35,963 nt of DNA from assembly GCA_021740045.1 (NCBI GenBank), contig JAIPAP010000036.1, positions 1-35,963 on the forward strand, in the 5' to 3' direction. Each line of letters starts with the position of its first letter. Position 1 is the first letter of the stretch. A program made the position numbers and the translations under genes. Below the pieces are notes generated by a model. The model worked only from the letters and a program-made list of their open reading frames with translations. It was not told the origin of the DNA and made no database searches. This DNA is from Bacteroidales bacterium (GTDB lineage: Bacteria > Bacteroidota > Bacteroidia > Bacteroidales > JAIPAP01). Below, in pieces: positions 2,940 to 35,831 of this stretch.

Positions 2940-3650
2940 GATAGTTCCGATTTTTAAGAAAGAACAAAAATTGTTGGCTATGGTTCAAGGGGGAGGTGGT
3001 GAGCTTTAATGAATAGTGAGGAGGGGAGGTATGGTATTGGCTATGGGGTGTGAATTATGATAGTTGGTAGCCGGTAGTTGGTGGGTAAAGCTACTAGTCC
3101 ACCTATGCTCACCCCCAACCCCCTAAAGGGGGCTTTTTTCAGAGCATGCTTGCTGTATTCCTGATAAAACAATAGTTGCAGCGCCCAAAGTCCCCTTAAG
3201 GGGATTTAGGGGTAAGGATAGCTGGCAATTGGTAGCCTTCAGTTAAAGGTGATATAGTAAACTCCTGCTTGGGGATTCGTATAATATCCACCCCAGGCAA
3301 AAATTAACCGGAAAATCAACCAGGAAAATGGTTATAAAAACAACTATAGGTAAAAAACAATATTCCACTTTTTCACGCCCCCAACCCCCTAAAGGGGGCT
3401 TTTTTCAGAGCATGCTTGCTGTATTCCTGATAAAACAATAGTTGCAGCGCCCAAAGTCCCCTTAAGGAGCTTTAGGGGCTATATTGGAGTCACTTTCCTG
3501 ACGGTTTAATCTACAGCATTGATTGCTTAAAATAATCTCAGATACAAAACAAAAAAAGATTCGCGCCAAATTCCCCTTCTATTTCAATATCTGATGCAGA
3601 ATTGCTTCTAATAATCAATCCGGCATTTGTAGAGCGTATAAAGCAGTATG
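2940..3650. other. Gene-free stretch holding repeat array 1
   Basis: 711 bp without a supported gene. 2940-3110 is the leader side of the E1 gene and has G-rich low-complexity text but no recognisable promoter. 3111-3478 is the first P-Q-P repeat array. 3479-3650 is AT-rich sequence downstream of the DUF559 gene. It contains a short open frame on the plus strand with no start codon, which I do not call a gene. Confidence 0.7.
3111..3478. repeat. Repeat array 1: P-Q-P modules
   Basis: Three modules: P1 3111-3213, Q1 3214-3376, P2 3377-3478. P1 and P2 lie 266 bp apart and are nearly identical. Each P starts with CCCCCAACCCCCTAAAGGGG and ends with a CCCCTTAAGGGG-like palindrome followed by ATTTAGGGG. 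The two ends are imperfect inverted repeats of about 27 bp (compare the left end with the reverse complement of the right end, ACCCCTAAATCCCCTTAAGG). Q1 contains a potential stem TGCTTGGGG (3266-3274) / CCCCAGGCA (3291-3299). The right end of P2 has changed (AAGGAGCTTTAGGGG). Non-coding mobile or REP-like sequence is the best reading. The same modules recur at 4217-4848. Confidence 0.9.
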
Positions 3651-4019
3651 CTACATATGTTTACGGATTTCATTTAACACACAATCTATATTTTCTATTA
3701 CCTCTTCATTTTTAAATCTTAGGATTTTTATATCATACTTATTGATTTCAGCGGCTCTGCCAATATCATATTCTCTTTTCTGTTTATGAATGCCACCATC
3801 TATTTCAATCACCAACTTCAACTTATGACAATAAAAATCAACTATAAACCTATCAATAGGATGTTGAGCCTTAAATCTCACCCCGAGTTGGTTCTTCCTT
3901 AATCTTTCCCAGAGAATTTTTTCAGGCATTGTCATATTCTTTCGCAGCTCTGCTGCTTTCTGAAAAATCCATGAAGGAGCATTATAGAACATCGACCGAT
4001 TAACAGAACGTCTTTTCAT
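3651..4019 (-). CDS. DUF559 (COG2852) endonuclease-like protein
   Basis: 122 residues. The sequence fits the DUF559 family of small PD-(D/E)XK/Vsr-like nuclease-fold proteins: MPEKILWERLRKNQLGVRF (about 31-49), then DRFIVDFYCHKLKLVIEIDG (56-75) with candidate metal ligands D61, E72 and D74, then GGIH and the REYD..R helix, and a final KILRFKNEEVIENID strand-helix. The length is the usual one for the family and all core segments are present, so the gene looks intact. Family members occur in many copies in Bacteroidota and their biological role is not established; DNA nicking or cleavage is inferred from the fold. The gene sits alone between two arrays of the same P/Q repeats (ending 3478 and starting 4217), with no methyltransferase or mutS/mutL neighbour. 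Start chosen at the first ATG (MKRRSVNR); M10 is an alternative. Confidence 0.88.
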   Translation of the reverse strand: MKRRSVNRSMFYNAPSWIFQKAAELRKNMTMPEKILWERLRKNQLGVRFKAQHPIDRFIVDFYCHKLKLVIEIDGGIHKQKREYDIGRAAEINKYDIKILRFKNEEVIENIDCVLNEIRKHM

Positions 4020-5000
4020 TTTATTTCAAATTTGTGAGTATTAAGATACTCATTTATGTTTGATTTAATTCAAAAATAACTTCAAGTTAAGTAAACTATC
4101 TATATTTATTTAAACAGAAACATATTCTCTTAAAGGGTTGAGAGGCATATTTTAAGAAATATGAAAAAGTCCTTTTGAAATAAATTAAACGAATAAATCA
4201 ATAACCACCTTTGCTCACCCCCAACCCCCTATAGGGGGCTTTTTTCAGAATGCACCGGCCGTTTCCCCATTAAATCAATAGATGCATTGCCCAAAGTCCC
4301 CTTTAGGGGATTTAGGGGTAAGGATAGCTGGCAATTAGTAGCCTTCAGTTAAAGGTGATATAGTAAACTCCTGCTTGGGGATTCGTATAATATCCACCCC
4401 AGGCAAAAATTAACCGGAAAATCAACCAGGAAAATGGTTATAAAAACAACCATAGGTAAAAAGCAACATTCACTTTTTCACGCCCCCAACCCCCTAAAGG
4501 GGGCTTTATTCAGAGCATGCTTGCTGTATTCCTGATAAAACAATAGTTGCAGCGCCCAAAGTCCCCTTCAGGGGATTTAGGGGTAAGGATAGCTGGAAAT
4601 TGGTAGCCTTCAGTTAAAGGTGATATAGTAAACTCCTGCTTGGGGATTCGTATAATATCCACCCCAGGCAAAAATTAACCGGAAAACCAACCAGGAAAAT
4701 GGTTATAAAATCGATTATGGGAAGAACTAATATTCCACTTTTTCTCGCCCCCAACCCCCTAAAGGGGGCTTTTTTCAGAGCATGCTTGCTGTATTCCTGA
4801 TAAAACAATAGATGCATTGCCCAAAGTCCCCTTTAGGGGATTTAGGGGCATACATAGAAGCACCAATCTAACAACCTGATTTCCAATATCCACCTTTTAT
4901 CCAGATACAAATTTATCAGAAGCTTAGCACAAAACCCGTGCTCTTCTTCAACTTTCAAATAGACTCTAGGGACTAGCCAAACTTATCACCAATAAATTCA
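4020..5000. other. Gene-free stretch holding repeat array 2
   Basis: 981 bp without a supported gene. 4020-4216 is AT-rich leader of the DUF559 gene. It has one weak match to the Bacteroidota -7 pattern on the minus strand (TATTTTTG, complement of 4071-4078) but no -33 TTG at a good distance. 4217-4848 is repeat array 2. 4849-5000 is unremarkable sequence downstream of the aconitase gene. Confidence 0.65.
4217..4848. repeat. Repeat array 2: P-Q-P-Q-P modules
   Basis: Five modules in the same orientation as array 1: P3 4217-4319, Q2 4320-4481, P4 4482-4584, Q3 4585-4746, P5 4747-4848. The P-to-P distance is 265 bp in both steps. Q2 is close to Q1; Q3 differs mainly in its last 40 bases. P3 is the most divergent P in its centre (GAATGCACCGGCCGTTTCCC in place of the consensus) but keeps both palindromic ends. 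P3 and P5 share the variant ending CAATAGATGCATTGCCCAAA, whereas P1, P2 and P4 have CAATAGTTGCAGCGCCCAAA. Arrays 1 and 2 also share the outer left flank CCACCT(A/T)TGCTC (3099-3110 and 4205-4216), which internal P copies lack. Confidence 0.9.
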
Positions 5001-22688: not shown

Positions 22689-23834
22689 ATGTTTAAGCCC
22701 ATGTATAAAAATTTTACACACTACTCGCAAACAGCCATAATAATTCTGGCTGTGATCTTTTCAGTTAGTAACCTTAAGGCTTCGGAGAAAAAGCACGGCG
22801 ACGCTCCTTACACCGGTCATCAGATCGATCGCGGCCAACGGCTTTTTTATGGGCTTGCAGTGTTTGAAAGCGGAAAACACAACTGTCAATCATGCCATTA
22901 CACACAAGTTCCCAAGGAGGTCAATTGGAACCCCTCGGCCGTGGACCTGGCGGATAAAGCCTTGAAAACAAAAGACTACAACCTAAAAAAAGTAATGGAT
23001 AACCCTTCGTCGAAGGTTATGCGAAAAGCACATGAAAAAATAAAAATAACCGAAGAAGAAGCTGAACTGTTAAAAGCTTACTTTTACAAAGTTGAACAAA
23101 AAGGGCTTGAACCCTCGAAACCATTTCCCAAAAATTTATTGATCTTTCTTACAACAGGGATTTTGATGGCCCTGGCTATTATCGACCTATTGTTTACGCA
23201 CAAAATCCGTTTTAAAGCCATCCCTGTTTTGATCCTGCTGATATCACTTGCCTTTCATATCAAAGTTATTGCTAATGAAGCGATTATGCTGAGCCGTACA
23301 CCCGGCTATCAGCCGGATCAACCCATCAAGTTTTCTCATAAGGTGCATGCCGGTCAAAATAACATCGACTGCGAGTACTGTCACAGCTCGGTAAATGATA
23401 GTAAGGTTGCCGGAATACCTTCTAACCAGCTATGCATGAATTGTCACAATGTGGTTAGAGAAGGATCGCGTACCGGTAAATTCGAAATCGCTAAAATCCA
23501 TGAGGCGGTAAACAACAACAAACCTATAGAGTGGATCAAGGTCCATAATCTCCCCGATCATGTTTTCTTTAGCCATGCACAGCATGTAAATGCGGGCAAG
23601 GTCGAGTGCCAGACCTGCCATGGAGAAGTGGAAGAAATGCACATGGTAAGACAGGTGAAAGACCTCTCCATGGGATGGTGCATTAATTGCCACCGGGATA
23701 CCAAGGTGCAATTCCTCGAAAACGATTATTATTCAACATATCACTCATTACGTAAAGCTTTGGAAACCGGAAAGAAAGATTCCATTACCGTGGAGGACAT
23801 CGGGGGAGAGAATTGTATGAAATGTCATTACTAA
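22689..23834 (+). CDS. actA: Alternative complex III subunit ActA, multiheme cytochrome c
   Basis: 381 residues. Heme-bearing subunit of the ACIII quinol:cytochrome c oxidoreductase, on the periplasmic side. Six CxxCH motifs: C66 (CQSCH), then five in the C-terminal half at C228 (CEYCH), C249 (CMNCH), C307 (CQTCH), C331 (CINCH) and C376 (CMKCH). An N-terminal signal (about 15-31) precedes a single-heme cytochrome c-like domain (about 40-138; M103 or M111 may be the axial ligand). Two transmembrane helices (about 149-170 and 177-196) then lead into the pentaheme domain. The C-terminal pentaheme part is standard ActA; the heme-bearing N-terminal domain makes this a hexaheme version. First gene of the act operon. 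ATG 22689 chosen; M5 is an alternative. Confidence 0.93.
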   Translation: MFKPMYKNFTHYSQTAIIILAVIFSVSNLKASEKKHGDAPYTGHQIDRGQRLFYGLAVFESGKHNCQSCHYTQVPKEVNWNPSAVDLADKALKTKDYNLKKVMDNPSSKVMRKAHEKIKITEEEAELLKAYFYKVEQKGLEPSKPFPKNLLIFLTTGILMALAIIDLLFTHKIRFKAIPVLILLISLAFHIKVIANEAIMLSRTPGYQPDQPIKFSHKVHAGQNNIDCEYCHSSVNDSKVAGIPSNQLCMNCHNVVREGSRTGKFEIAKIHEAVNNNKPIEWIKVHNLPDHVFFSHAQHVNAGKVECQTCHGEVEEMHMVRQVKDLSMGWCINCHRDTKVQFLENDYYSTYHSLRKALETGKKDSITVEDIGGENCMKCHY

Positions 23835-23878
23835 CAATTTCCAAAACCTATGTTGAACTGTAAAACCAAAAACGATCT

Positions 23879-26854
23879 ATGAGTAAGAAATACTGGCAGA
23901 GTTTAGAGCAATATCACGAAGAACCTGATATTGATCAACATAAATCCGAAAGTAAGCAAAAAAACGATTTAATGGAGTTGATGGGTGATGAAGCCCTTCA
24001 AAAGAAATCATCGCGCCGCAACTTCCTCAAATTTTGCGGATTCACCGTGTCTTCGGCCGCCATTGCTTCGAGTTGTGAAAACCCGGTGAAAAAGGCCATT
24101 CCTTTTCTTAACCGTCCGGCAGAGATGACGCCCGGTGAAGCCGATTTTTATGCTTCTACTTTTTTCGATGGCAATGAGTTTTGCAGCATCCTGGTAAAAA
24201 ACCGGGACGGCAGGCCTATTAAGATCGAAGGAAACGACCTGTCGCCCTTTACCAAAGGAGGAACCACGGCCAACGTGCAATCTTCCATATTAAGCCTTTA
24301 TGATTCAGGCGGGCGCTACAAGCAACCCATGAAAGAGGATAAACGCTCCTCATGGAAACAAGTGGATCCGGAAATTAAAGATAAGCTGGAAGCCATTAAG
24401 GAAAAAGACGGGGAAATCGTGTTGTTGACTTCCTCTATCATCAGCCCCACTGCCAAACAAAGCATTGCCGATTTCAGAAAATATTATCCCTCCGCAAAGC
24501 ATGTAACTTATGATGCCGTTTCACAAACAGGTATGCTCAGAGCCAATAAGCGCTCCTTTAATAAACAGGTTATTCCTTCCTATCATTTCGATCAAGCGGA
24601 TGTAATTGTAAGCTTTGGCGCCGATTTTCTGGGTACGTGGATATCACCGGCCGAATTCACCCTGCAATACAGCAAAAACCGCAAGCTTAATGCCGGCAAG
24701 GATACCATGTCGCAACACATACAATTTGAAGCCGGCATGAGCCTAACCGGAAGTAATGCCGACCGCAGAATCCCTATCAAACCCTCGGAGGAAGGTATTC
24801 AACTGGCCAATCTTTATAATATTATTGCCCGCAAGATGGGCGAAACCTCCTTTAATGTGCCTTCGGCCCGCATCAACATGAAAAATGTTGCCGCCAAACT
24901 AATGAATAACCGGGGAAGATCATTGGTGGTATCGGGCAGCAACGATGTAAATATTCAGGTGCTGGTAAATGCCATTAATCAATTGCTGGGTAATTACGGC
25001 AAAACTATCGATCTGAGCCGCCCTGTTTATATCAAGCAAGGTATCGACAGCGAAATGCGCGATTTGGTAAACCGGATGAACCAGGGCAAGGTGGAAGCCC
25101 TTATCATGCACAATGTAAATCCGGCTTATGATTACCCGGATGCCGGCGAATTCAGCAAAGGTCTTAATAAGGTAGACCTTACCATCCATATGGGGCATGC
25201 CAAGAACGAGACCAGCAAGAAGGCCACTTATGTTTGCCCTGACAACCATTACCTGGAATCATGGGGCGATGCCCTCCCGAAAGAGGGATTCTACAGCCTG
25301 CAGCAACCCCTTATTCGTAAATTATACACCACACGTCAGTGGCAGGAATCACTACTGAAGTGGGCCGGAAAAAGCATTAACTACCTTGATTATTTGAAAA
25401 AACATTGGGAAACAAATATCTATCCCAATAAAGCTGGTTTGGAAAGTTTTTCAAGCTGGTGGAACAAAACTCTTCAAAAAGGGGTACTCGATACCGGCAA
25501 AGACAACGGTCAACCGGACTACACAACCCGGGGACTACGACAGGCCGCTAATTCAATTAAGAAATCGAATAACAAGGGTTTTGAGCTGGTTTTTTATGAA
25601 AGTGTTGCCCTGCGCGACGGTAAACAAGCCAACAACCCCTGGCTGCAGGAATTACCCGACCCCATTGCCAAAATATCCTGGGATAACTTTGCAGCTATTC
25701 CCGTTCAATGGGGAGAAGAAAAGGGATTGAAAAACGGCGATATCATCAAGGTTGATGGTATAGAGTTACCCGTATTTCTCCAGCCCGGGCAAGCCAAGGG
25801 AACTATTGCAGTGGCATACGGCTATGGCAGAAGCGAAACCGGCAAAGTGGCCGATGGTGTGGGCAAAAATGTATTTGCCCATATCCCGTTTCAGAGTGGC
25901 ATCCGCTATAACACCAAACCTGGTGTGGAAGTGTCAGTTACCGGCAAACATATGGAACTTGCCCTTTCACAAACACACCATTCCATGGAGGGCCGCGACA
26001 TTGTGCGCGAAACTACCCTGGATGAATACAAAAAAGACCATGCCGCCGGTAACCACGCCCACGAAGAATTTGTAAAACATCATAAAGAATCACTTTATAA
26101 AAAGCAGGAATTCCCGGGTCATCACTGGGGATTGATCGTCGACCTGAACTCCTGTATTGGCTGCAGCAATTGCATGGTGGCCTGTCAGGCCGAAAACAAT
26201 GTACCGGTTGTCGGAAAGGAACAGGTTAAAAACCGCCGTATTATGCATTGGATCAGGGTTGACCGCTATTTCAGCGGCGATACCGAAGATACCGGTACTC
26301 ATCACCAACCGGTTATGTGTCAGCATTGTGATAATGCACCCTGCGAAAATGTGTGTCCGGTTGCCGCTACCATGCACAGCGACGAAGGCCTGAACCAAAT
26401 GGCATACAATCGCTGCATTGGCACAAAATACTGTATCAACAACTGTCCTTACAAAGTGCGCCGTTTTAACTGGTACCGCTATGTGACCAACAATGAATTT
26501 GATTATAACATGAACGACGAAGTTGGCCTGATGGCGCTTAATCCTGATGTAACGGTAAGGGAGCGTGGTGTTGTGGAGAAGTGCACTTTTTGTGTTCAGC
26601 GCATTCAGGAAAAGAAACTGCAGGCCAAGAAGGAAGGCCGCCCGTTGAAAGACGGTGACGTACAGCCCGCCTGCGTTCAATCATGCCCGGCAAAAGCCCT
26701 TACTTTCGGCGACTTGAACGACCCGGACAGCGAAGTATCGAAATTGGTAAAAGACAAGCGTAACTACGGTTTGTTAGAACAATTGCACACCTTGCCATCG
26801 GTTAATTACCTGACCAAGGTAAGGAACAAACCGGAGGAACTGGAAGAAGTATAA
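23879..26854 (+). CDS. actB: Alternative complex III subunit ActB, molybdopterin-like/iron-sulfur protein
   Basis: 991 residues. An extended N-terminus (KYWQSLEQYHEEPD) precedes a Tat-like signal RRNFLK (46-51), the extended Tat arrangement typical of these proteins. About residues 70-730 resemble a molybdopterin oxidoreductase; in ACIII this part is known to lack the cofactor. The C-terminal part is ferredoxin-like with cysteine groups C759/762/765/769, C814/817/822/826, C846/852/856 and C902/905/932/936. The third group has only three cysteines (CIGTKYCINNC), which suits a [3Fe-4S] cluster next to three [4Fe-4S] clusters, as described for ACIII. It passes electrons from the quinol site to the hemes. 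It starts 44 bp after actA. Confidence 0.95.
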   Translation: MSKKYWQSLEQYHEEPDIDQHKSESKQKNDLMELMGDEALQKKSSRRNFLKFCGFTVSSAAIASSCENPVKKAIPFLNRPAEMTPGEADFYASTFFDGNEFCSILVKNRDGRPIKIEGNDLSPFTKGGTTANVQSSILSLYDSGGRYKQPMKEDKRSSWKQVDPEIKDKLEAIKEKDGEIVLLTSSIISPTAKQSIADFRKYYPSAKHVTYDAVSQTGMLRANKRSFNKQVIPSYHFDQADVIVSFGADFLGTWISPAEFTLQYSKNRKLNAGKDTMSQHIQFEAGMSLTGSNADRRIPIKPSEEGIQLANLYNIIARKMGETSFNVPSARINMKNVAAKLMNNRGRSLVVSGSNDVNIQVLVNAINQLLGNYGKTIDLSRPVYIKQGIDSEMRDLVNRMNQGKVEALIMHNVNPAYDYPDAGEFSKGLNKVDLTIHMGHAKNETSKKATYVCPDNHYLESWGDALPKEGFYSLQQPLIRKLYTTRQWQESLLKWAGKSINYLDYLKKHWETNIYPNKAGLESFSSWWNKTLQKGVLDTGKDNGQPDYTTRGLRQAANSIKKSNNKGFELVFYESVALRDGKQANNPWLQELPDPIAKISWDNFAAIPVQWGEEKGLKNGDIIKVDGIELPVFLQPGQAKGTIAVAYGYGRSETGKVADGVGKNVFAHIPFQSGIRYNTKPGVEVSVTGKHMELALSQTHHSMEGRDIVRETTLDEYKKDHAAGNHAHEEFVKHHKESLYKKQEFPGHHWGLIVDLNSCIGCSNCMVACQAENNVPVVGKEQVKNRRIMHWIRVDRYFSGDTEDTGTHHQPVMCQHCDNAPCENVCPVAATMHSDEGLNQMAYNRCIGTKYCINNCPYKVRRFNWYRYVTNNEFDYNMNDEVGLMALNPDVTVRERGVVEKCTFCVQRIQEKKLQAKKEGRPLKDGDVQPACVQSCPAKALTFGDLNDPDSEVSKLVKDKRNYGLLEQLHTLPSVNYLTKVRNKPEELEEV

Positions 26855-26875
26855 AAGAGTTGAAAAACATTTTGT

Positions 26876-28237
26876 ATGTATAAAACAAAAATACGCGGAC
26901 CATTGATCTTAGGGGGCAAAACGCTCCGTAACATATCGGAAGATGTCATTGCCCCGATTTATCAAAAAGCACCATTATGGTGGTGGATCATGCTAGGCCT
27001 CAGCCTGCTGATGTCAGCCTTTGGGCTGTGGGCTATGTATGTGACCATTTCCACCGGTATCGGTACCTGGGGTGTTAATAACTCCGTAGGTTGGGGATGG
27101 GCGATTATCAACTTTGTGTGGTGGATCGGTATCGGACACGCCGGTACCGCTTTTTCCATCTTCTTGCTGGTATTGAGGCAAAAATGGAGGACCTCCATCA
27201 ACCGGGCAGCGGAAGCGATGACGGTTTTTGCCGTGGGTGCAGCCGCTTTGTTCCCGGCCCTGCACATGGGCCGAATTTGGCTGGCCTTCTACATCATTCC
27301 CTACCCCAATACCCGGGGTCCCCTCTGGGTGAACTTCAACTCACCCCTGTTCTGGGACTTCGCCGCCATTAGTGCTTATCTGCTTATTTCGGTTTCATTC
27401 TGGTATTTCGGAATGTTACCCGATTTTGCCACCATCCGCGACCGGGCCACCTCCAAAATTAAAAAGTCGGTATACGGAATCCTGGCATTTGGCTGGAAAG
27501 GCTCCATCAGGGACTGGAAGAACTACGAAAGCCTTGCTTTTATTTTAGGCGGGATTGCTGCCGTACTGGTAGTTTCGGTACACTCCATTGTGGCTACCGA
27601 CTTTGCCGTGTCGGTTATTCCCGGGTGGCACACAACCATTTTCCCGCCCTATTTTGTGGTGGGCGCTATTTTCTCAGGTTTTGCCATGGTATTAACCCTG
27701 ATGATCCTCATCAGGAAACTGTATAATTTCGAAAATTATGTTACCGACAGCCACCTGAACGCCATTGCCAAAATATTGATCTTTATTTCATTGATCATGG
27801 GTACGGGCTATGCAACGGAGGTCTTTATAGCTTGGTACTCAGGCAACGAATTTGAAATGTTCACCTTCTTTCATAACCGCATAACCGGCGAATATACCTT
27901 TATGTTCTGGGCCATGGTGGTATGTAATGCGCTGGTGCCCCAGCTTTTCTGGTCGAAAAAGATAAGAAGTAACTTAACGGCCCTGTTCATCATTTCAATC
28001 ATTATCAACATCGGAATGTGGTATGAACGCTTCAACATTGTGGTTACTTCGCTTGCCAATGATTACCTGCCGGCCAACTGGGTTAATTATGAACCCACGC
28101 TGGTGGAAGTAGGCATTTATGTAGGCACCCTCGGAATTTTCATCCTGGGCATCCTGCTCTTTATGAAGTTTGTCCCGATGATGGCCATCAGTGAGCTAAA
28201 GGGGATTTTGAAATTCAACAAGGAACAAAAGCATTAA
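26876..28237 (+). CDS. actC: Alternative complex III subunit ActC, NrfD-like membrane protein
   Basis: 453 residues with about ten hydrophobic helices, NrfD/PsrC family. ActC is the quinol-binding membrane subunit paired with ActB. Conserved features visible: PLWWWIMLGLSLLMSAFG, WWIGIGHAGTAFSIFLLV and HMGRIWLAFYIIPYPN, all in the usual order. The chain ends with a charged tail (KGILKFNKEQKH). It is 21 bp downstream of actB and 3 bp upstream of actD, consistent with one transcript. Confidence 0.95.
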   Translation: MYKTKIRGPLILGGKTLRNISEDVIAPIYQKAPLWWWIMLGLSLLMSAFGLWAMYVTISTGIGTWGVNNSVGWGWAIINFVWWIGIGHAGTAFSIFLLVLRQKWRTSINRAAEAMTVFAVGAAALFPALHMGRIWLAFYIIPYPNTRGPLWVNFNSPLFWDFAAISAYLLISVSFWYFGMLPDFATIRDRATSKIKKSVYGILAFGWKGSIRDWKNYESLAFILGGIAAVLVVSVHSIVATDFAVSVIPGWHTTIFPPYFVVGAIFSGFAMVLTLMILIRKLYNFENYVTDSHLNAIAKILIFISLIMGTGYATEVFIAWYSGNEFEMFTFFHNRITGEYTFMFWAMVVCNALVPQLFWSKKIRSNLTALFIISIIINIGMWYERFNIVVTSLANDYLPANWVNYEPTLVEVGIYVGTLGIFILGILLFMKFVPMMAISELKGILKFNKEQKH

Positions 28238-28240
28238 GTC

Positions 28241-28774
28241 ATGACGAATAAGTACATTATAGGCGTGTTCGATGATGAGGAAACCCTTCTCGATGCTGTA
28301 AGAAAGGTGAAGGAGAAGGATATCGATATCCGCGATGTGTATACGCCCTACCCGAGCGAAACATTGCTGGAGATCCTCAAGATCAAATCGTATTTTACCT
28401 ATTATGCTTTTCTTTACGGCTTTGGCGGGGCATTGGCCTTGCTGGCATTTATGTATTATGCCGCCGTAATTGACTGGCCGATGAATTTTGGCGGAAAGCC
28501 CTCCGAGGCGTTCCCGTCATTCATCATTGTAACCATTGTTCTCACCATATTCCTGATCACTGTGCTCAGTCTGTTTACCTTTTCGGTGCGAACCGACATA
28601 TACCCGGGCCGCAAGGCCATAATGCCCGATCCGCGTTCGACCGATGATAAATTTGTGATGGTGGTTGCTAAAGACCAAATCAGGAATATGGAGGAAGAAT
28701 ATCATCAAATGCTCAAAGACAGCGGGGCATCGGAAGTTTATGAAAAAGAAATGGAACTAAAGATCAAACCCTAA
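28241..28774 (+). CDS. actD: Alternative complex III subunit ActD (DUF3341)
   Basis: 177 residues. The DUF3341 pattern: an N-terminal soluble part starting KYIIGVFDDEETLLDAV, two central membrane helices (about 56-76 and 94-117) separated by NFGGKPSEAFPSF, and a C-terminal soluble part with DDKFVMVVA. The N- and C-terminal parts are cytoplasmic in solved ACIII structures. The stop codon overlaps the ATG of actE by one base (TAATG). Confidence 0.93.
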   Translation: MTNKYIIGVFDDEETLLDAVRKVKEKDIDIRDVYTPYPSETLLEILKIKSYFTYYAFLYGFGGALALLAFMYYAAVIDWPMNFGGKPSEAFPSFIIVTIVLTIFLITVLSLFTFSVRTDIYPGRKAIMPDPRSTDDKFVMVVAKDQIRNMEEEYHQMLKDSGASEVYEKEMELKIKP

Positions 28775-29388
28775 TGCAGCAAAATACCATGATACAAAAC
28801 ACAAATATTAGAACCGGGCCGGCATACCTTGCTGCTATACTGGCAGTATTCATGATCATATTCAGCTCCTGCGACCGGACACGAAACGATAAGGGGTATG
28901 AATATTTTCCGGATATGGCCCATTCATGGCCCTATGATACCTATTCGGAAAACCCGGTTTATGAAGATGGGAAAACCGCCCAGCCGGTTCCCGAGGGTAC
29001 GGTTCCAAGAGACGAAATCCCTTACCAGTATCCGGGAAGCTTCGAAGGACGCGAGTTAGCCGCCAAAGAGCTTAAGAATCCTTTTGAGCCCACGGCCAAA
29101 CTCATAAAACGTGGTAAGGAACAATATGATATCTTTTGTGTGAACTGCCACGGACCCGAAGGAAAAGGCAACGGCAACCTCCACACAAGCGGATTATACA
29201 TCATTAAGCCCAAATCATTGGTGAATGATAAAATGAAGAATGAAGTTACCGACGGCGAGATCTTCCATGTGATCACACGGGGATGGGGTGTTATGGGAGC
29301 CCATGGCGCGCAGATCGATCCCGACGACCGCTGGGCTATTGTAAATTATATCAGGGAAGAATTACAGGCAAATTCAGATAATCAATAA
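28774..29388 (+). CDS. actE: Alternative complex III subunit ActE, monoheme cytochrome c lipoprotein
   Basis: 204 residues. The signal segment ending IIFSSC is a lipoprotein signal (cysteine about residue 33), so the protein is anchored at the periplasmic face. One heme c site, C122-V-N-C-H126, is followed by GPEGKGNG; GAHGAQIDPDDRWAIVNYI is the typical C-terminal helix of the fold, with the preceding GVMGAHG methionine as a likely axial ligand. It would carry electrons from ActA towards the oxidase. ATG 28774 overlaps the actD stop; M6 (28789) is possible. Confidence 0.94.
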   Translation: MQQNTMIQNTNIRTGPAYLAAILAVFMIIFSSCDRTRNDKGYEYFPDMAHSWPYDTYSENPVYEDGKTAQPVPEGTVPRDEIPYQYPGSFEGRELAAKELKNPFEPTAKLIKRGKEQYDIFCVNCHGPEGKGNGNLHTSGLYIIKPKSLVNDKMKNEVTDGEIFHVITRGWGVMGAHGAQIDPDDRWAIVNYIREELQANSDNQ

Positions 29389-29399
29389 AACGGATTAAG

Positions 29400-30560
29400 A
29401 TGGACACCAAATTTACCCTTACATCCAAATACAAATACATATCAGGGGCGCTGATCCTGATAGGTGTAGCAGCTTTTGTTTATGGGTTTATTACAAATCC
29501 CGGCCGAAGTTGGGCCAACCTGCTGCTCAACAACTATTACTTTCTGTCACTGGCCATAGGGGCATCGTTTTTCATCGGGATACAATACATAACCCAGTCG
29601 GGCTGGTCAACGATGTTTAAACGGGTACCCGAAGCCATGACCAGTTATATTCCCTTTGCCGCTGTTTTTATGCTGCTGATCTTTTTCGGCATGCAGGCCC
29701 TTTATCACTGGTCGGATCCCGGTGCCGCCGCCCATGATGAACTTATTGCCCACAAATCGCCCTATCTGAATGTACCCTTCTTTTTTATTCGGATCGTGTT
29801 GTTTTTTGGCCTCTGGATCCTTATGAGCCGCTTTCTGCGCAAGCTTTCCCTTAAAGAAGACCTGGAAGGCGGTTTGAGATATTTCGAAAAAAGCGAATAC
29901 TATTACAAGGTTTATATCTTTATACTGGCCATTACCTTTTCGCTGGCAACCTTCGATTGGATCATGTCGATAGATGTGCATTGGTACAGCACCCTGTTTG
30001 CCCTGAAAGATTTTGTGGCCGCCTTTTTCCATGCTGCTGCCATCATTACCCTGATCATCCTTCTACTGAACGATCGCGGCTATTTTAAGGACCTGAACAA
30101 AAGCCACCTGCTCGATTTTTCGCGCTATATTTTTATGCTGTGTATTATCTGGGGGTATTTCTGGTTTGCCGAATTCATGCTGATCTGGTACGCCAACATC
30201 CCCGAAGAAACCATGTATATTGCCCAGCGCTGGGAAGACGGATGGATCTACCTGTTTTACGGCAACATTTTCATCAACTGGTTTATACCATTTCTATTTC
30301 TGATGTCGCGCGATATCGACCGGAGCAAACTGGGCCTTAAGATCATCAGCATTATATTGATATTCGGTTACTGGATTGACTTGTATATACAAATATTCCC
30401 CGGTACTGTGGGTGAATTTTCCATTGGCTTTATTGAAATAGGGGCATTTCTGGGGTTCGGCGGATTATTTGCATTGCTCACGGGCATTGCCCTGAGCCGG
30501 GCCGCGCTGATCCCAAAAAATCACCCCTACCTGGAGGAAAGCTTGTATCATCACGCATAA
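29400..30560 (+). CDS. actF: Alternative complex III subunit ActF, NrfD-like membrane protein
   Basis: 386 residues, about ten membrane helices, a distant relative of ActC. Characteristic text: GWSTMFKRVPEAM, SLATFDWIMSIDVHWYSTLFALKDF, WGYFWFAEFMLIWYANIPEE, and HPYLEESLYHHA at the end. ActF supports the membrane core of ACIII and may contribute to proton movement. It starts 11 bp after actE and ends 10 bp before the UbiA-like gene, so the latter is likely read from the same transcript. Confidence 0.94.
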   Translation: MDTKFTLTSKYKYISGALILIGVAAFVYGFITNPGRSWANLLLNNYYFLSLAIGASFFIGIQYITQSGWSTMFKRVPEAMTSYIPFAAVFMLLIFFGMQALYHWSDPGAAAHDELIAHKSPYLNVPFFFIRIVLFFGLWILMSRFLRKLSLKEDLEGGLRYFEKSEYYYKVYIFILAITFSLATFDWIMSIDVHWYSTLFALKDFVAAFFHAAAIITLIILLLNDRGYFKDLNKSHLLDFSRYIFMLCIIWGYFWFAEFMLIWYANIPEETMYIAQRWEDGWIYLFYGNIFINWFIPFLFLMSRDIDRSKLGLKIISIILIFGYWIDLYIQIFPGTVGEFSIGFIEIGAFLGFGGLFALLTGIALSRAALIPKNHPYLEESLYHHA

Positions 30561-30570
30561 GCAACAGATT

Positions 30571-31446
30571 ATGGAGCAGCAACCCTTATGCAGGGAGAAT
30601 ATTAAACACATAAGCTGGATCGACAAATTCCACATCCTTAGCCTCGACATCGCCCTTGGCACGCTTGGCGGTGGCGCACTAGCCAAGACCGTTACCCAGG
30701 TTTCGCTTCCCTTGACTTATTGGATCATCCTCCCCTTAACCGTTTGGGCTATATATACCACTGATCACCTTATCGATGGCTTAAAAGTAAAGGAGAATGC
30801 CAAAACCCTTCGCCATTACTTTCACTATATTCATGCTAAAAAACTGGCAGTAGCCGGGGCGTTAAGTGCTACTATTGCAATAAGCCTTGCCATTGCTTAT
30901 TTTAATATCCTTTTGATCTATTTTGGGCTGGGGCTGGGAATGGTGGTGCTGCTCTATTTTGTCGTTATCAAAATAAGTGAAAATAAACAATATTGGCTGT
31001 TTCAAAAGGAATTTACCATAGCCTTTGCCTATACCGCGGGCATATGGGGTGCCCCTGTCATCATAGCGCATTTTAACCTAAATTTAATTGAATGGCTGAT
31101 GATTGGGGTGTTTTTTCTGATTGCCCTTTCGAACTTATTGCTTTTTTCATGGTTTGAATATGATGTGGATAAAAACAGCAATTTTAAATCATTTGTGCGG
31201 ATGATCGGAAAACAAAACACAACGGTAATACTGCGCTATGTTTTTCTCACTGTTTTAATCGTCGAGCTTACCCTAACGGTTAAGTTATTTAACGATGCAG
31301 GGAATACGGCTCCTGCCATAATTCTTTTGATGATGACGGTTGTACTCAGTACCCTTTTTTTAGCGCCGAAATTTTTTGTAAAAAAGCACAAATACCGTTT
31401 TGCCGGCGACTGTATATTTATTTTACCGATCATGCTGTTAATTTAG
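30571..31446 (+). CDS. UbiA-like multi-helix membrane protein
   Basis: 291 residues with about eight hydrophobic segments. I do not recognise a named family with certainty. D65-H-L-I-D69 in IYTTDHLIDG and D198-V-D200 in WFEYDVDKN occupy the places of the two aspartate-rich motifs of UbiA prenyltransferases (prenyl diphosphate/Mg binding), and KEFTIAFAYTAGIW (146-159) resembles their conserved helix. The motifs are weaker than in CtaB, whose gene starts at 35818. If it is an enzyme it would prenylate or modify a lipid or quinone; it could also be a non-catalytic relative. It directly follows actF and is followed by 90 bp containing a new promoter, so it closes the ACIII unit. Confidence 0.6.
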   Translation: MEQQPLCRENIKHISWIDKFHILSLDIALGTLGGGALAKTVTQVSLPLTYWIILPLTVWAIYTTDHLIDGLKVKENAKTLRHYFHYIHAKKLAVAGALSATIAISLAIAYFNILLIYFGLGLGMVVLLYFVVIKISENKQYWLFQKEFTIAFAYTAGIWGAPVIIAHFNLNLIEWLMIGVFFLIALSNLLLFSWFEYDVDKNSNFKSFVRMIGKQNTTVILRYVFLTVLIVELTLTVKLFNDAGNTAPAIILLMMTVVLSTLFLAPKFFVKKHKYRFAGDCIFILPIMLLI

Positions 31447-31447
31447 A

Positions 31448-31480
31448 TTGATTTTAATTTATATAATATTATTACTTTTG
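31448..31480 (+). promoter_or_regulatory. Promoter of the SCO-oxidase operon
   Basis: TTG (31448-31450), a 22-nt spacer, TACTTTTG (31473-31480), a full match to TAnnTTTG. It starts just after the stop of the UbiA-like gene and lies about 56 bp before the SCO start at 31537, indicating separate transcription of the oxidase genes. Confidence 0.55.
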
Positions 31481-31536
31481 CATATGAAATTTATTCTATA
31501 TTTAAGTGAAATAGATATTAAATTTCGGGGGATCCT

Positions 31537-32334
31537 ATGAAATACATTAAACGACTTACATTCATTATTTTAATACCCTTCCTGTTCACATTGCAGGAAG
31601 CCGGCGCACAAAGCTCCGATTCAGACCGCGAGATTGGCATTGTTGAAAAACTTAACACCTATGTTCCCGAGGGTATCCGGTTGATCAACTCCACCGGCGA
31701 TACGGTTATGCTGAAAAAAACCATTGATAAGCCCACGATCTTAAACTTCGTTTATTACCGGTGCCCCGGTTTATGCAGCCCACTTATGGATGGCCTGGCG
31801 GAAGTTATCAGCAAAACCGACCTGAAAATCGGTAAAGATTACCAGGTTCTTACGGTCAGTTTCGATCCCAGTGAACCCATTGGTCTGGCCAATAAGAAGC
31901 GGGCAAATTACCTGAACCAGGTGAATAAAAAGATTGATGAGTCAGGGTGGCGGTTCTTTGTATCGGACAGTGCCAGCATTGCCAAAGCTACCAATGCCAC
32001 CGGTTTTAAATACAAAAAAACGGGAAAGGACTTTTTGCATTCAGCCTCCTTGATCGCTATCAGTCCCGAAGGCAAAATAACCCGTTACCTGAACGGCACT
32101 TATTTTCTGCCTTTCGAATTCAAGATGTCGATAGTAGAGGCTTCGGAAGGAAAAGCCGGCCCCACCATCAACAAAGTACTGCAATATTGCTACGCTTACG
32201 ATCCCGAAGGGCAACAATATGTGCTTAACATTACCAAAGTTGCCGGAACCCTCATTATCTTTATAGCGGTAGTATTATTTGTAGCGCTCGTATTGAAATC
32301 AAAAACCAAACGTAAACCACAAAAGGAAGCATAG
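31537..32334 (+). CDS. SCO1/SenC family copper chaperone
   Basis: 265 residues. Delivers or reduces copper for the CuA site of cytochrome oxidase subunit II. The thioredoxin-like domain has the copper-binding C76-P-G-L-C80 in YYRCPGLCSPLMD and the third ligand H168 in FLHSASLIAI. An N-terminal signal (about 5-25) and a C-terminal membrane helix (about 236-256) followed by KTKRK place the domain in the periplasm; the C-terminal anchor, not an N-terminal one, is typical of the Bacteroidota form. First gene of the oxidase unit, 3 bp before ctaD. Confidence 0.94.
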   Translation: MKYIKRLTFIILIPFLFTLQEAGAQSSDSDREIGIVEKLNTYVPEGIRLINSTGDTVMLKKTIDKPTILNFVYYRCPGLCSPLMDGLAEVISKTDLKIGKDYQVLTVSFDPSEPIGLANKKRANYLNQVNKKIDESGWRFFVSDSASIAKATNATGFKYKKTGKDFLHSASLIAISPEGKITRYLNGTYFLPFEFKMSIVEASEGKAGPTINKVLQYCYAYDPEGQQYVLNITKVAGTLIIFIAVVLFVALVLKSKTKRKPQKEA

Positions 32335-32337
32335 TAC

Positions 32338-33942
32338 ATGACAGCAAATTCGCATACCCATCATGAGCCCAGTTACCTGGAGGTAAAACCGCGCAAAGGT
32401 ATATGGAACTGGCTTTTATCAACCGATCATAAGCGCATCGGTTTGCTATACTTGTATTCCATCCTGATCTTTTTTGCGGTTGGTGCTTTATTGGGACTCT
32501 CCATGAAACTTGAGCTTATTGCGCCCGGCGAAACCATAATGGGTGCTCAAACTTACAATGGGTTCTTCACTCTTCACGGCATCATCATGATCTTCTTGAT
32601 CGTGATACCCGGCCTGCCCGCCGTCTTCGGGAACTTCTTCCTCCCCTTGATGATCGGGGCCGATGATGTAGCTTTTCCGAAGCTCAACCTGCTTTCATGG
32701 TATATTTATATTCTGGGGGCGCTTATTGCCATCTCATCGCAATTTATGGGTTCCGGGCCTCCCGATACCGGCTGGACCTTTTATGCACCTTATAGTTTCC
32801 AAACCAACACCAACATGCTTCCGGCAGTTACCGGGGCTTTTGTGCTCGGATTTTCATCCATCCTTACCGGCCTGAACTTTATTGTAACCATGCACCGCAT
32901 GCGGGCGCCGGGTATGAACTGGATGAAAATGCCCCTGTTCCCCTGGACGTTATACGGAACGGCCTGGATACAGATACTGGCAACCCCGATAGTGGGAATT
33001 ACCTTGTTGATGATCGTGGCTGAACGGCTGTTTCAGATCGGATTTTTCGACCCGGCATTGGGTGGTGATCCCATCCTGTACCAGCATTTGTTCTGGATTT
33101 ATTCCCACCCGGCCGTTTATATTATGATATTGCCGGCTATGGGCGCCATATCGGAAGTGATTCCCGTATTTGCCCGCAAAACGATCTTCGGTTATAAGGC
33201 CTTGATCATATCGACTATGGCCATCGCTTTTGTGGGATACTTCGTTTGGGGGCATCATATGTTTACCTCGGGCATGTCGGGCGAAGCCCTGGTATCGTTC
33301 TCGCTACTAACATTCCTGGTAGCCATCCCCAGTGCCATCAAAGTGTTTAACTGGATATCCACCATATACAAAGGAGCAATACATTTGGAACCGCCCTTTT
33401 ATTGGGCACTGTCGTTCATTTTTGTATTCATGATAGGAGGGTTATCGGGATTGGTACTTGGATCGCTGGCAACCAACGTACATGTGCACGATACCAATTT
33501 TGTGGTGGCCCACTTCCATTATATTGTCTTTGGGGGTACAGGCTTTGCCTTTATGGCTGCCCTGCATTACTGGTTTCCCAAGATCTGGGGGCGGATGTAT
33601 GACAAAGCCTGGGCCAATATCGGCTGGCTGACCTTCTTTATCGGTTTCAATGCTTTGTATTTCCCCATGTTCTATTTGGGCATCATCGGTATGCCACGCC
33701 GCTATTATGATTACCTGCCCGAATATCATGGCCCCAATATCCTGTCATCATTGGGCGCTATTGTAATGATCGCAGGGCTTTTAATTATTATCACCAATTT
33801 GGTGCGTTCCACCAAATCGGGCGAAAAAGCCGAAGCGGACCCATGGAATGGTAAAACCCTGGAATGGAAAACAACTTCGCCGCCACCGCTTGAAAACTTC
33901 GATAAACAACCAGTAGTAGATAAAGGTCCATACGAGTATTAA
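32338..33942 (+). CDS. ctaD: Cytochrome c oxidase subunit I (A2-type)
   Basis: 534 residues, twelve predicted helices. Reduces O2 at the heme a3-CuB centre and pumps protons. Heme/copper ligands are visible: the early FTLHGIIMIF histidine, H257 of the Tyr-His pair (with Y261), HH in WGHHMF, and the two histidines of VAHFHYIVFGG. Helix VI reads Y255-S256-H257-P258-A259-V260-Y261: the glutamate of A1-type enzymes (HPEVY) is replaced and the Tyr-Ser pair that marks A2-type enzymes is present. HDTNF replaces the more common HDTYF. A K-channel lysine is kept in PSAIKVFNW. It follows the SCO gene by 3 bp. Confidence 0.97.
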   Translation: MTANSHTHHEPSYLEVKPRKGIWNWLLSTDHKRIGLLYLYSILIFFAVGALLGLSMKLELIAPGETIMGAQTYNGFFTLHGIIMIFLIVIPGLPAVFGNFFLPLMIGADDVAFPKLNLLSWYIYILGALIAISSQFMGSGPPDTGWTFYAPYSFQTNTNMLPAVTGAFVLGFSSILTGLNFIVTMHRMRAPGMNWMKMPLFPWTLYGTAWIQILATPIVGITLLMIVAERLFQIGFFDPALGGDPILYQHLFWIYSHPAVYIMILPAMGAISEVIPVFARKTIFGYKALIISTMAIAFVGYFVWGHHMFTSGMSGEALVSFSLLTFLVAIPSAIKVFNWISTIYKGAIHLEPPFYWALSFIFVFMIGGLSGLVLGSLATNVHVHDTNFVVAHFHYIVFGGTGFAFMAALHYWFPKIWGRMYDKAWANIGWLTFFIGFNALYFPMFYLGIIGMPRRYYDYLPEYHGPNILSSLGAIVMIAGLLIIITNLVRSTKSGEKAEADPWNGKTLEWKTTSPPPLENFDKQPVVDKGPYEY

Positions 33943-33954
33943 TCATAAAGATAC

Positions 33955-34572
33955 ATGGAACAACACACACAACATGTCGACGAGCATTATGATCACATCG
34001 GATCCAAGATGGGGATGTGGTTGTTTATATTTACCGAATTAATCCTGTTTGGAGGCTTATTTATCGTTTATTCGGTATACCGGTTTATGCATCCCACGGC
34101 TTTTCACTTGGCAGCCGAAGAGCTTGATGTAGCAATAGGAACCATCAACACCGTTATTCTGCTCATCAGTAGCGCCACTATCGCTATGTCGATAACAGCC
34201 ATGCAACAGCGTAAGAAGAAGCTTTGCCTCGGGTTTATGTTTGCTACCATATTCCTGGGCCTGGTTTTCCTGGTGAACAAATATTTCGAGTGGAAAGTAA
34301 AATTTGAACATGGGCACTATCCCGGCTCGGATACCCTTCATGAGCTGGGGCATGGCGATACTTTGTTTTACGGGCTTTATTTCTTCATGACCGGCCTGCA
34401 TGCTCTGCACATTGTTGTAGGGCTAATTATCATTGGGTTTGTGGTCCGTTACGTTATAAATGACAAAGTGAACCCCGAGCGTTTTGCCCTGCTCGAAAAC
34501 GGCGGCCTTTACTGGCACCTGGTAGACGTTATCTGGATCTTTTTGTTTCCCTTATTTTATCTTATTCATTAA
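33955..34572 (+). CDS. ctaE: Cytochrome c oxidase subunit III
   Basis: 205 residues, about five helices, the short form without the first two helices of mitochondrial subunit III. Signatures: KMGMWLFIFTELILFGGLF at the start, FFMTGLHALHIVVGLIIIG and the terminal NGGLYWHLVDVIWIFLFP. Structural subunit that stabilises subunit I. It follows ctaD by 12 bp. Confidence 0.95.
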   Translation: MEQHTQHVDEHYDHIGSKMGMWLFIFTELILFGGLFIVYSVYRFMHPTAFHLAAEELDVAIGTINTVILLISSATIAMSITAMQQRKKKLCLGFMFATIFLGLVFLVNKYFEWKVKFEHGHYPGSDTLHELGHGDTLFYGLYFFMTGLHALHIVVGLIIIGFVVRYVINDKVNPERFALLENGGLYWHLVDVIWIFLFPLFYLIH

Positions 34573-34587
34573 TAAAAACCGAATGCG

Positions 34588-34872
34588 ATGAGTAAAGATG
34601 ATCAACATATTACAAGTTATAAAACGATCAGCCTGGTTCTTTTGGGGCTACTGTTTTTCACATTTTTAACCGTGGCTATTACGCGGGTTGAACTCGGGCC
34701 CTATAATACCTCCGCCGCAATGATCATTGCCGGGCTTAAAGCCGCCCTGGTATTGGTGTATTTTATGCACCTCAAATTCGATCAGAAGGTGTTCGGCATC
34801 ATGGTCATTTTTGTATTATTAGTATTTTTAGCCGTTATTGTGGTAACATTTTTTGACTATTTATATCGCTAA
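34588..34872 (+). CDS. Cytochrome c oxidase subunit IV family protein
   Basis: 94 residues with three hydrophobic helices (about 13-30, 40-60, 68-90). ALVLVYFMHLKFDQKVF between helices two and three is the recognisable piece of the prokaryotic subunit IV family (CtaF/CoxD type). It assists assembly or stability of the oxidase. It lies 15 bp after ctaE and 14 bp before ctaC. Confidence 0.9.
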   Translation: MSKDDQHITSYKTISLVLLGLLFFTFLTVAITRVELGPYNTSAAMIIAGLKAALVLVYFMHLKFDQKVFGIMVIFVLLVFLAVIVVTFFDYLYR

Positions 34873-34886
34873 ATCGATAAAAAGAT

Positions 34887-35831
34887 ATGTATCAAGGTAT
34901 TTCCAATTATTCAGAAGGTGTCGACACTGCTTTTATGGTGATCCTGGGAATTTCGTTTGCATTCCTTATCGGATTAACGGTAACGATGATCTACTTTGTG
35001 ATCCGTTATAATAAAAAACGTCATCCCAAGGCCACCCAAATTAAAGGAAGCACGGCACTCGAAATAGTCTGGACTGTAGTCCCCACCATCCTGGTGCTGG
35101 TAATGTTCTATTTTGGCTGGTCAGGTTGGCGCCCCATGCACGATATTCCCGAAGATGCCATGAAGGTTAAATCCATTGCCCGGATGTGGAAGTTTTCCTT
35201 TGAATATGAGAACGGGAAAACCAGCGAAAAGCTTTATATTCCCAAGGGTGAACCTGTGGTCCTCGACCTGATCTCAAGGGATGTTATTCATTCATTATAT
35301 ATACCGGCATTCCGGGTAAAAGAAGATATGGTTCCCGGAAGGACCAAACAAATGTGGTTTCAGGCCAATAAAACGGGCAGCTTCGATCTTTTCTGCGCTG
35401 AATATTGCGGCTTGCGGCACTCCTACATGACCACCACCGTTGAGGTGTTGCCCCAGGAGGAGTTTAAAAGCTGGATAGCCGATACTACCGGAGTAGCGAC
35501 AGCCGAAGGGGAAGAAGCCAAACCCGGCACAGCCGGAAAGCAAATCATTGAGCGCCTGGGCTGCGTCTCTTGCCATTCATTGGATGGCACCAAGCTCGTT
35601 GGCCCCACCTTTAAAAACCTTTGGGGTAAAACCGAAATGGTAACCACCGATGGTGATGAACGCCAGATCACCGTGGATAAGGAATACATTAAACGATCCA
35701 TATACCAGCCTAATGTTGATATTGTTGAAGGCTACCGCGAAGGTCAAATGGTTTCATACAAAGAGGAGCTCTCCGATGCGGATATCGATGCCATTGTTGA
35801 ATTCTTGAAAACCATTGATGAAGAAGAATAA
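34887..35831 (+). CDS. ctaC: Cytochrome c oxidase subunit II with fused cytochrome c (caa3 type)
   Basis: 314 residues. Two N-terminal membrane helices (about 14-38 and 55-75), then the cupredoxin domain with CuA ligands H135, C170, E172, C174, H178 and M181 (FCAEYCGLRHSYM). A linker of about 30 residues leads to a C-terminal cytochrome c domain with C226-V-S-C-H230 and a probable axial Met (M288 in GQMVSY). This fusion defines caa3-type oxidases, which take electrons directly from ACIII or a small cytochrome. No lipoprotein cysteine at the N-terminus. It is the last oxidase subunit here; its 3' end overlaps ctaB by 14 bp. Confidence 0.96.
   Translation: MYQGISNYSEGVDTAFMVILGISFAFLIGLTVTMIYFVIRYNKKRHPKATQIKGSTALEIVWTVVPTILVLVMFYFGWSGWRPMHDIPEDAMKVKSIARMWKFSFEYENGKTSEKLYIPKGEPVVLDLISRDVIHSLYIPAFRVKEDMVPGRTKQMWFQANKTGSFDLFCAEYCGLRHSYMTTTVEVLPQEEFKSWIADTTGVATAEGEEAKPGTAGKQIIERLGCVSCHSLDGTKLVGPTFKNLWGKTEMVTTDGDERQITVDKEYIKRSIYQPNVDIVEGYREGQMVSYKEELSDADIDAIVEFLKTIDEEE

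Follow-up and report, generated by a model that had tools for sequence, protein, structure and literature searches.

A candidate homing-type selfish element in a Bacteroidales genome: a DUF559 nuclease gene between REP-like palindromes

The systems closest to the locus described here are the REP/REPIN elements with their RAYT (TnpA-REP) proteins, which are HUH tyrosine transposases encoded by a small gene between inverted REPs, and the homing endonucleases of the EDxHD family such as I-Bth0305I. In Rickettsia, palindromic elements are inserted in frame and translated within genes, and we know of none that encodes a nuclease. The origin of the GC-rich intergenic palindromes found outside RAYT hosts is largely unexplained. 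DUF559, on the other side, is a domain without an assigned function that occurs very commonly. It was earlier placed in the EDxHD homing family (PMC9403480), and its E. coli member YcjD was earlier stated to be a PD-(D/E)XK protein (PMC1189080). The small part of the literature naming DUF559 or EDxHD that we covered held no apparent link to palindromic repeats.

We analysed a stretch of 35,963 nucleotides (the window; contig C40) from a 3.9-Mb draft genome of a Bacteroidales bacterium, in which a DUF559 gene is surrounded by two arrays of repeats (Table 1). As described in the original prediction, five P and three Q modules alternate around the intact gene in the order P-Q-P, DUF559 gene, P-Q-P-Q-P, and the gene was confirmed to be alone between the arrays, where it is flanked by two complete P modules and occupies the position of a Q. 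The P-to-P spacing along the array is 266, 840, 265 and 265. No matches were found in Rfam and tRNA scans of the window. Positions 22689–35831 hold a long respiratory cluster, ordinary by eye, that resembles alternative complex III (multihaem cytochrome, molybdopterin/FeS protein, NrfD-like, DUF3341-like and cytochrome c members), followed by a haem-copper cytochrome oxidase.

Table 1 Features of the P/Q array locus (positions in the window)
Feature	Position	Strand
P1, REPIN-like module, two inverted hairpin half-elements	3108..3212	+
Q1, spacer, unique to locus	3213..3369	+
P2	3370..3479	+
Interval with nuclease gene between two P modules, replacing a Q spacer	3480..4209	.
DUF559 nuclease gene, 122 aa, E33/D61/E72/D74/H78 intact	3651..4019	-
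P3	4210..4318	+
Q2	4319..4474	+
P4	4475..4583	+
Q3	4584..4739	+
P5	4740..4850	+

The P copies share 80–95% pairwise identity, with P3 being the most divergent, and the Q copies share 91–97%. P is a REPIN-like module, at which two half-elements form an inverted pair (CCCCCAACCCCCTAAAGGGGGCTTT...AAAGTCCCCTTTAGGGGATTTAGGGG), each consisting of a short hairpin (CCCCTTTAGGGG and variants) and a C/G tail. The hairpins exceed chance expectation: for the three P copies tested as single strands, 0, 4 and 0 of 200 shuffles folded equally well. Beyond the window, P was detected at only one other place in the same genome, as two side-by-side copies on contig C50, while no copies of Q were found elsewhere in this genome. 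Q is thus a locally multiplied spacer rather than a dispersed module, and its role as a component of a dispersed composite repeat was rejected; of the two modules named in the original prediction, P belongs to the general system and Q does not.

Not all of the REP-like matches in the genome are P copies, as we had considered, since about 13 of them are parts of a separate MITE ~180 bp in length. This MITE, with ends TAGAGTCTGTCTACAAACTTCC / GAGACTTTATAGACAAGCACTA, encloses a sister-type REP pair and lies on at least 12 contigs (L011–L023). A second nested palindromic element, AGTCTAAAAAGCCTTCAAACTGCTGATTTTTA ... GGCTTTTTAGACT, has a P-type REP inside (L010, L357, L360–L368) and is common to genomes of at least 4 families, with apparent compensatory changes in its stem. 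An apparent degenerate REP is also read in frame (APKSLKEDL) in a gene of the same genome judged by eye to be hypF-like (L019 1480–1530; G000:C92 near 6309).

The window gene is the only DUF559 copy in its genome. The encoded protein matches the DUF559 family of Pfam with an E value of 3e-33, and all the family-invariant residues (pattern E/D/ExD/H/D) are intact; Pfam matched DUF559 only, with no Y1 transposase domain (PF01797). Its AlphaFold model (pLDDT 86.7) has the structural-genomics protein NGO0050 (3hrl) as best structural match, followed by the catalytic domain of I-Bth0305I (3r3p, TM 0.76), with PvuRts1I and Vsr ranking after the latter. The sequence profile agrees with the fold comparison (E 2e-6 against 3r3p). 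Going by the predicted model, the homing endonuclease I-Bth0305I is thus the nearest structural relative whose function is known, and the protein shares with the EDxHD/Vsr-fold homing endonucleases a homologous catalytic domain and its acidic and His residues. In the DUF559 insert of Pedobacter hisF, described below, dN/dS is ~0.16; the nuclease is under purifying selection.

The original prediction suggested testing whether DUF559 genes are enriched close to such palindromes relative to other genes, and the outcome was strongly positive in two samples and in several phyla. Without using any motif, we compared the 500 bp left of each gene with the 500 bp right of it and counted a gene when the two matched, directly or inverted, with a score of at least 20. 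In the first sample (40 loci of the same order, with other genes >2 kb away on the same contigs as controls), shared flank repeats were found at 19/35 DUF559 genes against at most 8/260 controls. In the second, independent sample, taken from named genomes after excluding three overlapping loci, they were found at 25/50 DUF559 genes against 18/379 controls (Fisher about 1e-15); by this strict measure, only about half of the DUF559 genes are positive. Within 500 bp of the gene, a simple REP-like motif was present at 60/83 DUF559 loci, compared with 14/83 at 1.5–2 kb, and the P-type REP core was present at 19/83 DUF559 loci and at 0/20 loci of Y1 (RAYT-type) transposases. RAYT was rejected as the mobiliser of P, the flanks at these 20 Y1 loci having no P-type cores. 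The Y1 genes of Bacteroidota (L329–L342) are often bracketed by direct repeats (10/18), which are of another type than the REPs of DUF559 genes.

Reading the flanks, we identified minimal units of half-REP, gene and inverted half-REP (L069, L072, L099 and L104), as well as arrays similar to that of the window (L073, L093, L088, L105, L103, L070 and L095). Plasmid records of Picosynechococcus and Azospirillum also contain REP-flanked DUF559 genes, and weaker cases were seen in Deinococcus and next to ycjD of E. coli. The cyanobacterial repeat CCCCTAAATCCCCgattTGGGGACTTT shares the core of the window's P, and the REPs most similar to that of the window are those at DUF559 genes of Ancylomarina, Spirosoma, Chitinophagaceae and Marinifilum. 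Across the 83 loci, near-flank similarity rises with DUF559 protein identity (Spearman 0.26, Mantel p 0.001), whereas the far flanks at 1.4 kb do not track it (Spearman 0.01, p 0.38). Such co-divergence would be expected of a co-inherited mobile unit and is not by itself proof of recognition.

YcjD is a DUF559 protein present in E. coli K-12 among others, its gene being found in 3366/5426 genomes. Directly behind ycjD, in the sapF-fabI region, there are three REP-like hairpins (CCCTCACCCCAACCCTCTCCC...; L321 1490–2080). We dropped ycjD as a clean insertion polymorphism and hence as evidence of movement, as genomes without it carry eefRABCD at that place (PMC12817139).

Among 198 genomes of the same order, DUF559 is present in 81 and P-type REPs in 30; DUF559 was found in 23 of these 30 genomes against 58 of the 168 others (Fisher 3e-5). 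Three genomes (G037, G159 and G029) contain 15–54 P-type REPs each and no DUF559. The original prediction had named the free occurrence of P in genomes lacking DUF559 as an observation that would speak against the link, and in part this was found; P-type REPs also lie inside other MITEs. Both facts indicate that REPs can persist without the gene. A putative DUF559 remnant in the REP-rich G029 was rejected, as the weak match proved to be a Vsr gene with a C5 methyltransferase next to it.

The DUF559-REP unit is mobile within genomes and between species. One genome (G161) has two DUF559 copies that are 98% identical; their surroundings are unrelated, and ACCCCTATCCCCGGCC... REPs border each of them. 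In other genomes, REP-DUF559-REP units are inserted in frame within ileS, leuS, hsdR, hsdM and ribE, or fused to hisF and argB. In the Pfam scan of nine such host proteins, DUF559 either interrupts the host domains or is joined to them, and no splicing (Hint) domain was found. REP-derived peptides, SPTPALPKGKG and KVLPFGEDLGG among them, form the joints on both sides of the in-frame inserts. The hsdR insert lies directly before the Walker A motif in one cyanobacterium and in one Bacteroidota genome, and in one Patescibacteria genome ribE has two inserts, one of a REP only and one of REP-DUF559. At one leuS site, most genomes have the short form, five (and two more) have DUF559 with REPs, and several have the REP only; G160 carries the REP-only allele, and G052 of the same family carries the full insert. 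The leuS gene of G160 (L196/L236) encodes three tandem copies of the REP-derived peptide SNKVLSxxDNLGG. Weak DUF559 matches were also observed at another LeuS site, which follows the editing domain, in the LeuS proteins of ~1040 aa from G080, G184, G176 and G100 (L246, L247, L248 and L200), where the DUF559-like stretch is possibly an old domesticated insert.

At the hisA-hisF junction of Pedobacter, several allele states were found as well. In most of 144 Pedobacter genomes the hisF frame is 250–290 aa long, in 19 it reaches ~400 aa and includes DUF559, and in a few a decayed DUF559 copy was detected. The exact DNA borders are the hisA stop followed by CCCCCC..., the gene, and ...GGGGGG followed by hisF codon 2, with the hisF start codon being lost. 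On the hisF tree, at least 7 changes between the filled and empty states are forced by well-supported branches and 15 are given by parsimony, figures which are counts and not rates because the rows were partly chosen for their allele state. Synonymous divergence (pS) of DUF559 is lower than that of hisF in 110/136 species pairs and lower than that of hisA in 112/136, with the caveat that GC3 is slightly lower in the insert, which may reduce its apparent divergence a little; hisA and hisF do not differ from each other (54/136). In one example pair, pS is 0.13 for the insert against 0.42 and 0.47 for the flanking genes. Filled and empty alleles thus occur at one site, and the insert spreads independently of its host gene, as in a homing element. 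The empty alleles seen are without the element's REP, which indicates that REP and gene arrive or leave together. The empty hisA-hisF spacers (L270–L298) are crowded with other repeats, of the CGTCATTGCGAGGCACGAAGCAATC and CATGCTGAATTTATTTCAGCATC types, so that this spacer looks like a repeat hot spot.

In all, the gene is associated with REPs and diverges along with them, the sites occupied by the unit are precise and many are in-frame positions within conserved genes, and empty, filled, decayed and REP-only alleles exist. The explanation we favour, to which we give a probability of roughly 60%, is that a selfish element of homing type, in which REP-like palindromes enclose a DUF559 nuclease gene, is widespread and that the locus is one of its copies. 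The element's simplest form would be half-REP, gene and inverted half-REP; short REP pairs without a gene (REPINs such as P) would be the non-autonomous form, and in the window the P modules would have multiplied in tandem together with the local spacer Q. We infer that the DUF559 protein nicks or cuts REP or REP-like target DNA, the candidates being hairpins in single-stranded DNA or else the empty site, and that the break would be repaired by copying the element, as in homing. The REPs may serve as ends, as with RAYT, as landing sites, as for REP-targeting ISs, or as both. The broader claim, that DUF559 with its REPs constitutes a separate selfish class crossing phyla, is more tentative, and we consider it possible but somewhat doubtful. 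Such a class would be a REPtron built on a homing-type PD-(D/E)XK nuclease, which would generate and spread many of the GC-rich intergenic palindromes of bacteria, with a range that takes in Bacteroidota, cyanobacteria and E. coli (ycjD). It would also be the source of the nuclease domains placed in frame within aminoacyl-tRNA synthetases and biosynthetic enzymes.

The REPs could instead be targets and not ends, with DUF559 being a free-standing homing endonuclease gene that preferentially invades pre-existing REPs spread by other factors. The genomes holding REPs without DUF559 and the REP-only inserts at the leuS site are in line with this, and there is a precedent, as other elements are known to target REPs (PMC1525189, PMC8450116); IS1397 or ISPpu9 invade them. 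Yet the REP class co-diverges with the nuclease and the empty Pedobacter hisF alleles seen have no such REP, which makes this reading rather unlikely. Some of the dispersed REPs lie inside larger MITEs with terminal repeats of their own and may have been spread by another transposase.

In our view it is improbable that HUH (Y1/RAYT) transposases use the REPs as their substrates and that DUF559 is a passenger. Y1 genes occur in 134/198 genomes of the order, with four in the genome of the window, and in 28/30 genomes with P-type REPs against 106/168 others, an enrichment that includes the three REP-rich genomes without DUF559; however, the Y1 flanks are different, with direct repeats at 10/18 and the P-type core at 0/20, and it is the nuclease with which the REP co-diverges. 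We regard it as highly improbable that DUF559 is a Vsr-like repair or restriction enzyme beside ordinary terminators or repeat hot spots. The Vsr/PD-(D/E)XK fold would suit such an enzyme, and the Caulobacter DUF559 protein VsrA was linked to DNA damage when the cytosine methyltransferase is missing (PMC12907096). Against it, the palindromes lie on both sides of the gene and within reading frames, ileS, leuS and ribE contain the unit as an insert, and size-matched neighbour genes have no such flanks; matches to the curated defence families of PADLOC are weak and partial (E 2e-5 or worse), with no defence partner gene at the locus.

A link to palindromes would give a large nuclease family a role, and would explain the odd 'nuclease-aminoacyl-tRNA synthetase' and 'nuclease-HisF' fusions in databases. 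The filled and empty hisA-hisF pairs of Pedobacter are natural material for direct tests of homing. Compared with known systems, the element is similar to inteins in being inserted at conserved sites of essential genes (aminoacyl-tRNA synthetases, ATPases), but the DUF559 insert is without a splicing domain and would stay in the protein. With the Rickettsia palindromic elements it shares, as a likeness of form, the in-frame palindromic inserts in coding genes. The analogy to RAYT and REP drawn in the original prediction stands for anatomy and co-evolution: a gene flanked by REPs that evolve with its protein, and gene-less REP pairs and tandem modules elsewhere. It does not extend to the enzyme, since the PD-(D/E)XK/Vsr fold of DUF559 is unrelated to the RAYT transposase, nor to the in-frame insertion into essential genes. 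Unlike the EDxHD homing endonucleases and free-standing homing genes, the DUF559 element has no intron or intein, encodes ~120 aa without extra DNA-binding domains, and has palindromic borders and REP-only derivatives; as with them, there are a homologous catalytic domain, occurrence at the same site in distant taxa, empty, filled and decayed alleles, and an insert less diverged than its neighbours.
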